Origin: Candidatus Polarisedimenticolia bacterium
Lineage (GTDB): Bacteria; Acidobacteriota; Polarisedimenticolia; Gp22-AA2; AA152
NCBI GenBank assembly: GCA_036004685.1
Contig: DASYRE010000032.1
Location: forward strand, 1-64,000
Length of the DNA: 64,000 bases
Direction of reading: 5' to 3'
Positions 1,492 through 7,339 of the stretch are shown piece by piece (within the stretch, counting starts at the first letter, position 1; each line of letters opens with the position of its first letter). The position numbers and the translations under genes were made by a program. Below the pieces are notes generated by a model. It searched no databases and was not told the DNA's origin. It worked only from the letters and a program-made list of their open reading frames with translations.

Positions 1492-1512
1492 TATAACAGA
1501 GGCTGTTAGAAT
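1492..1512 (+). promoter_or_regulatory. Promoter elements of the ATP-grasp gene
   Basis: There is a TATAAC at 1492-1497 and an extended -10 TGTTAGAAT at 1504-1512. The second overlaps the first in-frame ATG (1511), so initiation from it would start RNA close to the second ATG (1520) and give a leaderless message. Which -10 is used cannot be told by reading. Confidence 0.4.
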
Positions 1513-2761
1513 GCCCGGCATGGGACGCAGAGTGCTGCTGCTGATGCCCGCGACCACCTACCGGGCGGCCGATTTTCTGTCGGCGGCCGCGGCACTGGAG
1601 GTGGACGTCACGGTGGGCACCGATCAGCGCCAGACGCTGGAGGAGGCGGCCCCCGGGAGCTCGATCCAGCTCGACTTCCTGGATCCGGCCGCGGCCACGC
1701 GGCGCATCGTCGAATTCTCCCGCCGCTTCCCGCTGGCGGCAGTGATCGGCGTCGAAGACGAGACCACTCTGGTCGCGGCGACGGCCGCCGAGGCGCTGGG
1801 CCTTCCGCACAATCCGGCGGAAGCGGCGCGCGCCGGCCGGGACAAACACCGGATGCGCTTTCTCCTCAGGGCGGCCGGCCTGCAAGGGCCGGAGTTCTGG
1901 AGATTCTCCCTCGAGGAGGAGCCGCGCGCGGCGGCGCGCCAGGTTTCCTACCCCTGCGTCCTCAAGCCGCTGTTCCTGTCGGCCAGCCGCGGCGTCGTTC
2001 GCGCCGACGATCCGGCCGGCTTCCTCCGCGCCTTTCAACGCGTCCGGGAGATCCTCCTCCGGCCGGAAGTCGCGGGCAAGGGCGGGGACGCCGCCCGCTT
2101 CATCCTGGCGGAGCGTTACATTCCCGGCAAGGAGGTCGCCGTCGAAGGCCTCCTGTCGGGCGGATCGTCGAGAGTGCTTGCGTTGTTCGACAAACCCGAT
2201 CCACTCGAAGGCCCCTATTTCGAGGAAACACTTTACGTAACTCCCTCGCGCCTGCCGCGGGAGACCCAGGAGGAGATCGCGGCCACCGTCGGGCGGGCCG
2301 CGTCGGCCCTCCATCTGAGGGAGGGGCCGTTGCACGCGGAGCTGAGAGTCAACGACGAAGGGGTGTGGCCGCTCGAGCTGGCGCCGCGCTCGATCGGCGG
2401 GCTCTGTTCGCGGGCGCTGCGCTTCGGGGCGGGCCTCTCCCTCGAAGAGCTGATCCTGCGCCACGCCCTCGGCCTGGAAGTCGGAAGCCTCGTGCGGGAG
2501 CGCTCGGCCGCGGGCGTGATGATGATCCCGATTCCAGGCGGCGGAGTGCTGCGGGAGTTCGGCGGCGCGGACGAGGCGCGGCGGGTCCGGGGGATCGAAT
2601 CGGTGACCCAGTCGATTCCGCTCGGCCAGGAAATCTGGCCGCTTCCCGAGGGAGCGCGCTACCTCGGCTTCATCGTCGCCCGCGGCGAGACCCCCGAGGA
2701 AGTCGAAGAAGCTCTCCGGCGCGCCCACCGGCGTCTTTCGATCGTGGTCTCACCCGCCTGA
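1511..2761 (+). CDS. ATP-grasp domain ligase
   Basis: The 416-residue protein has an N-terminal nucleotide-binding-like region, the DKHRMRFLLRAAG segment that begins the ATP-grasp fold, YPCVLKPLFLSASRGV (the ATP-binding lysine and glycine-rich loop), FILAERYIPGKEVAVEG, and LHAELRVNDEGVWPLELAPRSIGG with acidic and Asn-like Mg ligands. The C-terminal part resembles the extra domain of L-amino-acid ligases. The family makes amide, peptide or carboxyphosphate-derived bonds; the substrate here is unknown. Two in-frame starts exist (1511 and 1520); the later one fits a leaderless transcript. It stands alone, converging with the selenoprotein gene. Confidence 0.82.
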   Translation: MPGMGRRVLLLMPATTYRAADFLSAAAALEVDVTVGTDQRQTLEEAAPGSSIQLDFLDPAAATRRIVEFSRRFPLAAVIGVEDETTLVAATAAEALGLPHNPAEAARAGRDKHRMRFLLRAAGLQGPEFWRFSLEEEPRAAARQVSYPCVLKPLFLSASRGVVRADDPAGFLRAFQRVREILLRPEVAGKGGDAARFILAERYIPGKEVAVEGLLSGGSSRVLALFDKPDPLEGPYFEETLYVTPSRLPRETQEEIAATVGRAASALHLREGPLHAELRVNDEGVWPLELAPRSIGGLCSRALRFGAGLSLEELILRHALGLEVGSLVRERSAAGVMMIPIPGGGVLREFGGADEARRVRGIESVTQSIPLGQEIWPLPEGARYLGFIVARGETPEEVEEALRRAHRRLSIVVSPA

Positions 2762-2818: not shown

Positions 2819-4282
2819 TCAAACGAGGCGATTGACGTGGCGCAGAGGGTCCAACTGACCCTCGGTGGGCTCGGCTCAGCAGAACCACGATTCGGTGAGC
2901 CGCGGAAGATGCCGCCTGGGAAAGGAGTCGGACGGGAGCAGGCCGACGGAATCCTCGGCGGACGGCGCGCCCGCCGCGGCGCGGATGCACCGCCCGATCC
3001 GCCGGAACGTCAGCCGGGGATCCTCCTGATCGTGGGCCGCCCTCTCGATCAGGGCGGTGATCCTGCGGTGCAGGGCGTCCATTCGGGGGTCGGGGTGCGA
3101 CCAGGCATGACTGATCGAGGCGCTTTCGCCCGATTCCTTGAGGTAGGGGAGCATCGCCGGATGCGAGAGAAGCAGCGAGCCCGCCGGGATCAGGAGCCGG
3201 ACGGCGAGCTGCACCGGGTCGACCGCCTCGATGAGATCCTCCTCCTCGATGAAATCGACAAGCTCGCCGTACTCCTCGAGCGTCGACCAGGGAGTGAACG
3301 GGAGGAGGGAAGGGCGCAGCGTGATGCCGGCGTCGCGCACGATCCGGAAAGCCTCCAGCGCGTCGGCGCGCGAGTGCCCCTTGTCGAGAATCCCGAGCAC
3401 CCGGTCGCTCAGCGACTCGACCGCCGAGACGATGAACGAGCAGCCGAGCGACGCCATCTCCGGAAGGAGCCCGCGGTGCTTCAGGAGATGCTCGATCTTG
3501 GCGGTGAAATCGTAGCTCACGAAAGGGAACTCCCGCCGCATCTCCCGCAGGATGGCCAGCGAGTGGGCCGGGCCGTTCAGGAAGTCGGGATCGCCGAAGG
3601 TGACGTGCCGGGCGCCCGCTTCTACTTGCGAGCGGACGTCCGCGAGGACGACGTCTCGCGGAACGACGAAGAAGCGGCCGTCATAGACGGGGGGGATCGG
3701 GCAGTGGCGGCAGCGGTGCAGGCAGCCGCGGCTCGCCTCGGTGTAGCCGGCGAGACGGGTCTCCTCGCCGGTGACCAGCGACGCATAAGAGGCGAGCGGC
3801 GCCAGCAGCCTTCTCTCCGGGGGCGCGAACCGGAGCCGCGCCAGGATCGGAGGCTCGGGACGACCCGGAACTCCCAGCCCCGGCACGCTGCGCGGGTCCG
3901 CGCCGCGTTCCAGCGCCTCCGCCAGGGCGACCAGCGCTTCCTCATATTCGCCGCCGATGACGGAATCGGCGAGGGTCCCGAGCAGGCAGGCGGCGTTCAA
4001 GTGCGCATAGAGACCGTAGAAGCAAACGTGACACGCCGGGTTCAGCCGGCGAATCCTCTCGGCGACGCGCATTCCCAGGCGGAGCGCGGTGTGCATCGGG
4101 ACCGAGATGCCGATCAGGCGCGCCCGGAGGATTCTGGAGGGAAGCAGCGGCCCGCGCGCCACGTCGAGCGCGTCGGGGGCGAAGCCGGCCCGCTGGAGGA
4201 AGCCGAGAGGCGAAGCGATTCCGTGGGGCTGGTGGCCCAGCTCGTAGCAGGAGATTAGGAGGATCGAACCGGGCTGCCTCAT
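2819..4282 (-). CDS. Radical SAM selenoprotein with C-U-A-E-P tail (TGA at 2876-2878 read as Sec)
   Basis: The open frame runs 468 residues to a TGA, but the sequence before it, LTESWFC, and the codons after it (AEPTEGQLDP..., stopping at a second TGA at 2819-2821) make a continuous C-U-A-E-P tail, giving 487 residues with Sec469. A hairpin with the geometry of a bacterial SECIS follows the TGA. The first 120 residues form a B12-binding-like Rossmann region without an evident DxHxxG. The radical SAM cluster is Cys187-x3-Cys191-x2-Cys194, followed by a TIM-barrel region with FGDPDFLNGP and SAVESLSDRVL. I recall radical SAM proteins named for CUAEP/CCAEP tails, which supports the reading; the substrate is unknown. 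It lies 28 bases after the Nfu gene on the same strand, which could supply its Fe-S cluster. The ordinary reading would be a 468-residue protein ending in Cys. Confidence 0.8.
2845..2863 (-). promoter_or_regulatory. SECIS-like hairpin for the radical SAM selenoprotein
   Basis: On the minus strand the sequence reads GAGGGTC-AGTTG-GACCCTC, a perfect 7-bp stem with a 5-base loop. It begins 12 bases after the in-frame TGA, so the loop starts 20 bases after it. Bacterial SECIS elements lie within the coding region just after the Sec codon, with the apical loop roughly 16-37 bases away and a G in its first two positions; both conditions are met. There is no T-tract, so it is a poor terminator. I do not see a clear bulged U. 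Confidence 0.7.
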
Positions 4283-4310: not shown

Positions 4311-4598
4311 CTACTTGGAGGGCTGGTAGTAAGGGTTGGTGCCGCCCGCGTGGTCGGTCGTATCGACGATTTGCTGGACTTCCGGGATCTCCTCGCGAAT
4401 CATCCGCTCGATTCCCTGCTTGAGGGTCACGTTGGCCATGCCGCACCCTTGGCAGCCCCCTCCCATCCGCAGGTAGACGACGCCGTCCTTGAAATCGAGA
4501 AGCTCGATGAAGCCCCCGTGTCCCGCGACGGCCGGATTGATCTGGTAATCGATCATTTCCTGGATCTTCGACTTGAGGTCGCCGCCGCTCTCTTCCAT
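4311..4598 (-). CDS. NifU-like (Nfu) iron-sulfur scaffold protein
   Basis: This 95-residue protein is a stand-alone Nfu domain that assembles or carries a [4Fe-4S] cluster between two subunits. It shows INPAVAGHGGFIELLDFKDGVVYLRMGGGCQGCGMANVTLKQGIE, whose CxxC (GCQGCG) ligates the cluster. It is first in an operon with the radical SAM selenoprotein (28 bases apart), which suggests dedicated cluster delivery. GGAGTGG lies upstream of the ATG. Transcription probably starts from the extended -10 at 4677-4685. Confidence 0.92.
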   Translation of the reverse strand: MEESGGDLKSKIQEMIDYQINPAVAGHGGFIELLDFKDGVVYLRMGGGCQGCGMANVTLKQGIERMIREEIPEVQQIVDTTDHAGGTNPYYQPSK

Positions 4599-4776: not shown

Positions 4777-6141
4777 ATGAACGTCTTCGACAACGTCATC
4801 GACGCGGTGGGGAAGACTCCGCTGGTCCGGATCAACCGGCTGGGCCAGGAGACGGGCGCGACCTTCTACGCCAAGCTGGAGTACCTCAATCCCGGCGCCA
4901 GCGTCAAGGATCGCATCGCCATCCAGATCGTCGACGACGCGGAGAAGACGGGCCGCCTCAAGCCGGGGGGCACGATCGTCGAGTGCACCTCGGGCAACAC
5001 CGGCATGGGCCTCGCCATGGTCTGCGCGGCGCGCGGCTACCACACCATCCTGGTGATGCCCGACAAGGTGAGCGACGAGAAGATCAAGGCGCTGCAGGCG
5101 TTCGGCGCCAAGGTCGTTTCCACCCCGACGGCGGTCTCTCCGGAGGATCCCCGAAGCTACTATCAGGTGGCCCGGCGAATCGCCGAAACCACCCCCAATG
5201 CCTTCTTCGCCAACCAGTACGACAATCCCAGCAACGCTGAGGCCCATTTCCGGACGACCGGCCCCGAAATCTGGGAGCAGCTCGGGGACCGCCTGGACGC
5301 CGTCGTGGTGGCCACCGGAACCGGGGGGACGATCACCGGAATCGCCCGCTACATCAAGCCTCGCAAGCAATCGGTCAGGATGGTCCTCGTCGATCCGGTC
5401 GGCTCGATCTATTACGACTACGTCCGGACGGGGACCGCGCCGAAGGTCCTCAAGACCTACAAGGTGGAGGGATTCGGGGAGGACTTCATCCCCGGCAGCA
5501 TCGATCTCGAGGTGGTGGACGACGTGGTGCAGGTCTCGGACAAGGAATGCTTCCAGATGGCCCGGGAGCTGACGCGCAAGGAAGGGCTGTTCGGGGGCGG
5601 CTCCTGCGGCGGCGCCATGGCCGGCGCGATCAAGTTCGCCCGCGAGCGCCCCGAGGCGAAGACGATCGTCCTGATCCTGCCCGATTCGGGTTCCCGTTAC
5701 CTGAGCAAGGTGTACGACGACCGGTGGCTTCGGCAGAACGATTTCCTCGATGAGGATCTCGAAGGGAAGGTCGCCGATCTCATGGACAAGCGCCGGCAGC
5801 AGGTGATCTCGGCGCAGGCCTCCGATCCGGTCCGCTCCGTCATCGGCCTCATGAAGAAGCACGGCATCTCCCAGCTTCCGGTCCTCGACGGCGAGCAGCT
5901 GACCGGGATGATCTCGGAGGGGGGATTGCTGGGGGCCCTCCTGGGCGATCCGGCCGCCGCGCACCGTCCCGTCGGCGGCCTGGCCGAGCCCAATTACGAG
6001 GTCACTGAGCCGGCCGCGCCGATCTCCCGGCTCTCCGACATCATCTCGCGCGGCAAGGTCGCCCTGGTCGTCGAGAAGGGGCGGCTGCGGGGCGTGATCA
6101 CGAAATTCGATCTCATCGAGTATCTGGCCGCCACCCGCTGA
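4777..6141 (+). CDS. Cystathionine beta-synthase / cysteine synthase with CBS-domain pair
   Basis: The 454-residue protein joins a PLP-dependent fold II beta-synthase domain (about residues 1-320) to two CBS domains (about 335-454). The PLP lysine lies in NPGASVKDRIAI, the phosphate-binding loop is SGNTGMG, and GGSCGGAMAG and LPDSGSRYLSKVY are typical of cystathionine beta-synthases. The enzyme condenses serine (or an activated serine) with homocysteine or sulfide. The CBS pair usually binds an adenosyl ligand such as SAM and regulates activity. It diverges from the Nfu gene and is followed 25 bases later by an aminotransferase. Confidence 0.93.
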   Translation: MNVFDNVIDAVGKTPLVRINRLGQETGATFYAKLEYLNPGASVKDRIAIQIVDDAEKTGRLKPGGTIVECTSGNTGMGLAMVCAARGYHTILVMPDKVSDEKIKALQAFGAKVVSTPTAVSPEDPRSYYQVARRIAETTPNAFFANQYDNPSNAEAHFRTTGPEIWEQLGDRLDAVVVATGTGGTITGIARYIKPRKQSVRMVLVDPVGSIYYDYVRTGTAPKVLKTYKVEGFGEDFIPGSIDLEVVDDVVQVSDKECFQMARELTRKEGLFGGGSCGGAMAGAIKFARERPEAKTIVLILPDSGSRYLSKVYDDRWLRQNDFLDEDLEGKVADLMDKRRQQVISAQASDPVRSVIGLMKKHGISQLPVLDGEQLTGMISEGGLLGALLGDPAAAHRPVGGLAEPNYEVTEPAAPISRLSDIISRGKVALVVEKGRLRGVITKFDLIEYLAATR

Positions 6142-6166
6142 CCGGCCCGCAGCAAGGACCCACCGC

Positions 6167-7339
6167 GTGATGTTCTCCTCCCGAACCGGCTGGGATCGAT
6201 CCTCGAACCGCCTCGCCCGCCTGCTGGAGGAAAGGCGGTCCGGCGCGGAGCCGATTCTCGACTTGACCGAGACCAATCCCACCCGCGCGGGTTTTGCCTA
6301 CCCTGGGCCGGAGATCCTCAGGGCGCTCGCCCGGCCGGCGTCCCTCGCCTACGAGCCGAATCCGCGCGGCCTGCGCCCGGCGCGAGAGGCGATCGCGCGC
6401 GTCTTCGCGGAGCGGGGCGTCGGAGTGAGCGCGGAGGATCTGTTTCTCACGGCGAGCTCGAGCGACTCCTATGCCTGGGTTTTCAAGCTTCTCGCCGATC
6501 CCGGGGACGAGGTGCTGGTGCCGCAGCCGAGCTACCCCCTTTTCGACTTCCTTGCCCGCCTCGATTCCGTCCGCTCCGTTCCCTACCCCCTCTCCCCCGA
6601 AGGGGGTTGGGCCCTCGAGCCGTCCGCGGTGACGTCGCGGCTCGGCCCGAGGACCCGGGCGGTGGTGATCGTCAGCCCCAACAATCCCACGGGGACCTAT
6701 CTGAAGCGCGACGAGCTCGAAGGCCTCGCGCCGGCTTGCCATGAGCGCGGGGCGGCCCTCGTCGGGGACGAAGTCTTCGCCGAATACCCGGAAGGTCCCG
6801 ATCCCCGCCGCGCGGCCAGCGTGCTGGAAGCGGAGTCGGTCCTCTCCTTCAGCCTGGGGGGACTTTCCAAGCTGGCCGGGTTGCCGCAGCTGAAGCTGGG
6901 CTGGATCGCCGTCGGGGGCCCCGCCAACCTGCGCCGGGAGGCCTGCGAGCGCTTGGAGTTGATCGCCGACACCTATCTCCCGGTGAACATTCCCGTCCAA
7001 CAGGCCGCCCCGGACCTGCTGGAGCTTTCCCGGGGGCTCCGCGGGGAGATCCAGCGGCGGGTGCGGCGGAACCGCGCCTTTCTTCAAGAAAAGGCGGCCG
7101 GCTCGGCCTGCCAGGCGCTTCCGGGGGAAGGGGGCTGGTCGGCGGTCCTCAGGATCCCGGCCCTGATGTCCGAGGAGGATTGGGTTCTCTGCCTGCTGGA
7201 ACGGGATCATGTCCTGGTTCATCCCGGCTATTTCTTCGATTTTCCCTCGCCCGCCTACCTCGTCCTGAGCCTCCTCCCGGCGGAGGGGGTCTTTCGGGAA
7301 GGCGTCGAGCGCATCGCGGCGCGCGTGCGAGAGTCCTGA
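6167..7339 (+). CDS. Class I/II pyridoxal phosphate aminotransferase
   Basis: This is a fold-type I aminotransferase of 390 residues. It has LDLTETNPTR near the start (substrate-binding region), the conserved SPNNPTGTY, and the PLP lysine in SLGGLSKLAGLPQLKLGW. GTG (6167) and ATG (6170) are adjacent in-frame starts; AAGGA at 6153-6157 suits the GTG slightly better. It probably shares a transcript with the upstream CBS-type synthase, suggesting amino-acid metabolism, but the amino donor and acceptor cannot be assigned. Confidence 0.88.
   Translation: MMFSSRTGWDRSSNRLARLLEERRSGAEPILDLTETNPTRAGFAYPGPEILRALARPASLAYEPNPRGLRPAREAIARVFAERGVGVSAEDLFLTASSSDSYAWVFKLLADPGDEVLVPQPSYPLFDFLARLDSVRSVPYPLSPEGGWALEPSAVTSRLGPRTRAVVIVSPNNPTGTYLKRDELEGLAPACHERGAALVGDEVFAEYPEGPDPRRAASVLEAESVLSFSLGGLSKLAGLPQLKLGWIAVGGPANLRREACERLELIADTYLPVNIPVQQAAPDLLELSRGLRGEIQRRVRRNRAFLQEKAAGSACQALPGEGGWSAVLRIPALMSEEDWVLCLLERDHVLVHPGYFFDFPSPAYLVLSLLPAEGVFREGVERIAARVRES

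Follow-up and report, generated by a model that had tools for sequence, protein, structure and literature searches.

ArsL of Burkholderia gladioli is required for the conversion of arsenite to hydroxyarsinothricin and is sufficient for this conversion in Escherichia coli (PMC8552651). For the reaction, a transfer of the 3-amino-3-carboxypropyl (ACP) group of SAM has been proposed (PMC8552651). In NCBIfam, ArsL and its relatives with an RCCLKC tail are covered by model NF040542. A separate model, NF040546 (rSAM_CUAEP), comprises 'CUAEP/CCAEP-tail radical SAM (seleno)proteins' that carry selenocysteine (Sec) or cysteine at the second position of the tail. A Cys-Sec pair close to the C-terminus is also a feature of thioredoxin reductase, whose tail is Gly-Cys-Sec-Gly (GCUG), although that enzyme is unrelated to the CUAEP radical SAM proteins and a redox role of the pair is only putative in the latter.

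Here, we describe a member of NF040546 encoded in a stretch of 64,000 nucleotides, the whole of which is called the window. Its product matches the model with 661.6 bits (cut-off 500) over profile positions 1-467 of 468, that is, at full length and with the tail included, and nothing was found that separates it from the family. An earlier note on this DNA had pointed to radical SAM families named for CUAEP/CCAEP tails, and such a family does exist. Since it has already been named by NCBI curators, the selenoprotein itself is not new. The literature searched contains no mention of CUAEP, RCCLKC or NF040546 (one-word matches to CCAEP were unrelated), but an earlier description is possible; the accession root NF04054 is absent from a 2026 review of prokaryotic selenoproteomes (PMC13188914). 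The function of the CUAEP family and its near-constant peptide-ligase partner thus seem to be without description in the literature searched. The features of the gene are:

2822..4282, minus strand: predicted radical SAM selenoprotein with a CUAEP tail, 487 aa with Sec469 counted
4282 and 2821-2819, minus strand: start ATG (at 4282) and stop TGA of this gene, from translation with read-through
3701..3724, minus strand: radical SAM [4Fe-4S] motif CX3CX2C with Cys187/191/194, which does not vary across the aligned family (positions calculated codon by codon from the start ATG at 4282)
2876..2878, minus strand: in-frame TGA read as Sec469, from the codon pattern in 108 homologues
2822..2881, minus strand: C-U-A-E-P-T-E-G-Q-L-D-P... 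tail, obtained by read-through and omitted by a standard ORF caller
2845..2863, minus strand: SECIS-like hairpin of the bacterial type with a 7-bp stem and the loop AGTTG; in TGA genes it is maintained through compensatory changes

Decoding of the in-frame UGA

On the minus strand, the codon for Cys468 (TGC, 2881-2879) is followed by TGA (2878-2876). Beyond it are 18 sense codons, AEPTEGQLDPLRHVNRLV, up to a second TGA (2821-2819). We treat the latter as the true stop, since the tails of homologues lose their similarity and terminate close to this point. The gene at 2822-4282 matches PF04055 (Radical_SAM), but the ORF caller lists it as 2876-4282 with 468 aa and without the tail. This is what the earlier note had read from the letters: an apparent stop directly after ...WFC, a CUAEP tail of 18 residues up to 2819-2821 and a protein cut at Cys468 by standard gene calling. 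Sequence, translation and ORF list agree with it exactly.

Homologues from many phyla were compared at this site. Their tails were picked from 111 sequences, scanned on both strands, by the pattern W-[FY]-C-[C or stop]-x-[ED]-P, a scan that other residues at the site would escape; only three sequences were without such a tail, and at least some of these are cut by a contig end. In the remaining 108 homologues the invariant Cys is followed by TGA (73), TGC (25) or TGT (10) and nothing else, which also answers the question, raised earlier, of whether Cys codons occur at the TGA position. The preceding residue is Cys in 108 of 108 homologues with a readable tail, and C468, Sec/Cys469, E471 and P472 are invariant in the family alignment. 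Within the reach of this tail-motif scan Sec is replaced only by Cys, and a tree built without the tail requires at least ten changes between the two.

The hairpin begins 12 nt past the TGA. Its 5' arm GAGGGTC (2863-2857) and 3' arm GACCCTC (2851-2845) enclose the loop AGTTG (2856-2852), 5 nt with G as the second base, exactly as had been noticed before. The apical loop starts 19 nt past the TGA, and this distance is 19-20 nt in 70 of the 73 TGA homologues. The suspected SECIS geometry holds across the family: a stem of at least 6 bp is found in 65/73 TGA genes versus 4/35 Cys genes, and in 5-8% of shuffled sequences. Stems vary on both arms along with the encoded amino acids while pairing is kept, as in GAGGGTC/GACCCTC (TEGQLDP), GGGATC/GATCCC (TRDQLDP), AGCGGCC/GGCCGCT (TSGQLAA) and CAGAGCA/TGCTCTG (NSEQVAL). 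When folding was compared with that of synonymous recodings, the mean z was -1.33 in the TGA group and -0.23 in the Cys group (Mann-Whitney p = 2e-8). For the window gene alone this test gave no significant stability (fraction 0.27), and the support for the hairpin therefore comes from the family.

The Sec machinery, for which the earlier note had suggested a search elsewhere in the genome, is present with all of selA, selB, selC and selD. SelA scores 564 bits, SelB and SelD were found, and the tRNA-Sec has the anticodon TCA. Among genomes with a full-length TGA form (the window's included) or a full-length stop-free form, SelA is above cut-off in 45/45 of the former and 5/10 of the latter, Cys-form genomes (Fisher p = 7e-5). 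SelD of the source genome (L018, G000:C8:40973-41899) is itself a selenoprotein with an in-frame TGA at SSGGUAAKL.

That the TGA is an ordinary stop and the tail untranslated would be in line with a window hairpin that is by itself not unusual among synonymous recodings. This reading is, however, hardly credible in view of a tail that is kept across many phyla, a TGA that is swapped only with Cys codons, a SECIS-like hairpin found mainly in TGA genes, a SelA that tracks the TGA form and a complete Sec machinery in the genome. With several independent lines backing Sec, we regard it as near certain from the sequences that the UGA at 2876-2878 is decoded as Sec to give a C-terminal Cys468-Sec469-Ala-Glu-Pro tail. 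SelB, tRNA-Sec and the hairpin would let the ribosomes insert Sec at the UGA.

Like many other genes, the window gene is cut short by ordinary gene calling, in its case just before a catalytically suggestive residue. The protein of Thermomicrobium roseum (NC_011961, L143:7953-9389) is annotated as CUAEP/CCAEP-tail, yet ends at the TGA and has no tail. CCAEP proteins of Thermogemmatispora (L092, L094, L099, L108) run on beyond the usual C-terminus and contain a further Cys-Cys pair there (...DCCGVGH or the like).

Kinship to ArsL

The second-best NCBIfam model for the window protein is NF040542 (ArsL) with 290.2 bits, which is below its cut-off of 450; by curated sequence criteria the enzyme is not ArsL. 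It is 38% identical over 408 aa to an RCCLKC-tail protein of Priestia, and the CUAEP and RCCLKC families have conserved residues in common through both halves, CX3CX2C included. The only fully invariant Cys positions in the CUAEP family are the three of this motif and the tail pair. In the alignment, the tail pair coincides with the CC of RCCLKC; a vicinal Cys-Cys or Cys-Sec stands at the C-terminus in both families. Because the linker in front of the tail is longer by about 50 residues in CUAEP proteins, this alignment is suggestive of homologous tails but no proof, for which the tails are too short. The window protein thus differs from the RCCLKC proteins in having CUAEP on a longer linker; moreover, the ArsL-type proteins examined carry Cys and not Sec. 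The earlier note mentions neither ArsL nor the ATP-grasp neighbour described below.

Arsenic genes are mostly absent near CUAEP genes, and this is a further difference. None of arsM, arsN1 and arsQ is near the window gene, and relatives of ArsN1, ArsQ, ArsH and ArsC were found near none of the 81 CUAEP loci. A true ArsM together with ArsR is near the CUAEP gene in one of the 81 loci: at a Chloroflexi locus (L053:5333-6513), arsM (above cut-off) and an arsR-family regulator are at a distance of two to three genes. An ArsB-like permease is encoded near the CUAEP gene at five loci of Ktedonobacteria, but the ArsB-like proteins are below their cut-offs.

Together with the homology to ArsL, the Chloroflexi arsR and arsM genes and the permeases of the Ktedonobacteria would fit an organoarsenical synthase proper that converts arsenite to hydroxyarsinothricin or a close analogue. 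We consider this quite improbable. Apart from the gap between 290 and 450 bits in the ArsL score, the sub-threshold ArsB-like proteins and the sparse arsenic genes at the 81 loci, the CUAEP gene occurs mostly in phylum-wise clades, unlike a mobile resistance trait. The CUAEP enzyme probably makes no arsinothricin in most hosts.

Ligase and Fe-S genes as neighbours

Two genes flank the radical SAM gene in the window:

1511..2761, plus strand: ATP-grasp protein resembling L-amino-acid ligases; its gene and the radical SAM gene converge
4311..4598, minus strand: Nfu/NifU C-terminal-type Fe-S scaffold (NifU PF01106), directly upstream on the same strand

L-amino-acid ligases make dipeptides. The protein encoded at 1511-2761 has the domains ATP-grasp_4 (PF13535) and LAL_C2 (PF18603), both above cut-off, and ATPgrasp_N. 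Its best match among solved structures is 3vot, the dipeptide ligase BL00235 (E = 3.7e-41), from which it differs in belonging to a distinct, CUAEP-tied subfamily with a median identity of 55% within.

A profile of this subfamily (A2) was run over 396 Acidobacteriota genomes and found the ligase in 66. Of the 64 genomes that carry a CUAEP gene, complete or in part, 62 have it, versus 4 of the 332 without (p = 6e-65, uncorrected for relatedness). Within families, f18 and f4 for example, the CUAEP gene has a patchy distribution that is mirrored by the ligase. The two genes are adjacent in 43 of the 60 Acidobacteriota genomes with comparable positions, and the other 17 keep the ligase unlinked. 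Over all 81 loci, ligase relatives are close to the CUAEP gene in 39, in either orientation; in the wider set, 34 of 41 genomes that have no ligase near the CUAEP gene hold one elsewhere. A functional link between CUAEP radical SAM protein and ATP-grasp ligase is thus strongly supported. An exception is a clade of Planctomycetota/Verrucomicrobiota (L034, L040, L043, L051) that has the Sec form and in whose genomes no ATP-grasp partner was found.

A MerT-like gene (by sequence) is nearby in three of these four loci. The MerT-like and ArsB-like neighbours, suggestive at first sight, follow lineage synteny.

An ATP-grasp neighbour is also a point of likeness to the RCCLKC proteins, whose clusters in Priestia, Alicyclobacillus, Pantoea and on Klebsiella plasmids carry such a gene. 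The one from Priestia, too, best matches 3vot. Between the CUAEP-type and RCCLKC-type ATP-grasp proteins, identity is only about 22-30%, and the two groups need not be orthologous.

The Nfu-type neighbour recurs at 25/81 CUAEP loci, and iron or Fe-S genes (Nfu, YggX, SUF) are near the CUAEP gene at 33/81; at GC-rich loci the neighbour genes were called with a codon model. At four loci (L031, L044, L063, L064), Fe-S assembly genes are found upstream of the CUAEP gene, which is followed downstream by Nfu and the ATP-grasp ligase; the upstream genes that were checked are SufS and FeS_assembly_P (L044) and a NifU_N scaffold (L064). NfuA rebuilds the sacrificed Fe-S cluster of lipoyl synthase, and the Fe-S neighbours of the CUAEP genes may point to repair of a cluster or to one that is sacrificed. 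By analogy, the tail could ligate or feed an additional Fe-S cluster, which would give up atoms for sulfur or selenium insertion and be rebuilt by Nfu. The Nfu-type and other Fe-S genes, with SufS, NifU_N scaffold and FeS_assembly_P upstream in some loci, would be in line with such a role. We nevertheless think it unlikely, as a second cluster could draw only on the two tail Cys/Sec residues and on Cys281, which is 94% conserved, and as the linkage to Nfu is lineage-specific, unlike that to the ligase.

Other neighbours include a DUF169 gene near the CUAEP gene at 16/81 loci. At one locus (L070:8001 onwards) the CCAEP tail continues in frame into a DUF169 protein, and in related Nitrospirota loci DUF169 is a separate adjoining gene. 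Beside the Nfu gene of the window there are, by sequence, cysteine synthase/CBS-domain-like and PLP aminotransferase-like genes (4777-7339, plus strand); relatives of the PLP aminotransferase are near CUAEP genes at eight loci from several phyla.

A possible role of the Cys-Sec tail

Sequence searches found no solved structure of ArsL or of a CUAEP protein. An AlphaFold2 model built from an alignment of 56 sequences has a pLDDT of 92.1 and a pTM of 0.91. The nearest solved folds are the radical SAM enzymes of the B12-domain type AprD4, TsrM, OxsB and MgmA (Foldseek E 1e-19 to 1e-16), which are only 15-20% identical, catalyse other reactions and have no Sec tail; the match of the window protein to the B12-binding PF02310 (21.4 bits) is below the cut-off of 32.1. 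In the model, pLDDT drops to about 55 in residues 441-450 and is 76-80 in residues 451-470, which hold the Cys-Sec pair. The latter scores are consistent with a tail that is docked back on the core.

The adjacent C-terminal Cys and Sec behind a linker of low confidence, and a Sec that is exchanged only for Cys in at least ten changes on the tree, bring to mind the tail of thioredoxin reductase. The enzyme could carry out some other radical SAM chemistry, and a mobile Cys-Sec tail would form a selenenylsulfide and shuttle electrons to the substrate or the cluster. This 'redox Cys-Sec pair', as the earlier note had called it, is a lesser possibility that we take seriously. However, a docked tail accounts better than a free arm for the scores of residues 451-470 and for the strong conservation of PRLTEPWFC. 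In addition, a soft metalloid is the substrate of the related ArsL, and among the gene families identified as neighbours none that is conserved is a reductase.

Our preferred reading is instead that the tail is a ligand. Judging from the kinship to ArsL, the position of the vicinal pair and the partnership with the ligase, we infer that the CUAEP enzyme would cleave SAM to an ACP radical and transfer the ACP moiety to an acceptor, a soft atom or group that the Cys-Sec tail would hold. A parallel may be seen in the RCCLKC proteins, whose C-terminal cysteines may hold arsenite. The resulting non-standard amino acid would then be joined to another molecule by the ATP-grasp ligase. ACP transfer by CUAEP proteins is proposed by analogy, since 38% identity to an ArsL-type protein leaves the reaction unfixed. 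Points against our reading are the missing arsenic genes near most CUAEP genes, the fold neighbours, which are B12-type radical SAM enzymes with other reactions, and the clade of L034, L040, L043 and L051, in which no ligase was found. The combined picture of a Sec enzyme, ACP transfer to an acceptor held by the tail and ligation of the product seems to us evenly poised between right and wrong. More tentative, and on balance rather doubtful, is the full proposal of an undescribed two-gene pathway of CUAEP protein and ligase in about 14 phyla, in which Sec would serve as ligand or nucleophile for the soft acceptor during ACP transfer and an as yet unknown ACP-derived amino acid would be built by the ligase into a small metabolite of peptide-like nature or into a metal ligand.

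Through its ties to ArsL and to a specific ligase, a selenoprotein that so far had a name but no explanation can be placed in a pathway of two enzymes that is open to testing and for which a reaction is proposed. We know of no earlier case of Sec as acceptor ligand in a radical SAM enzyme, and carbon-heteroatom transfer with such a ligand would, if shown, be a new role of Sec in radical SAM chemistry. The CUAEP pathway would concern many uncultured lineages of soil and groundwater.
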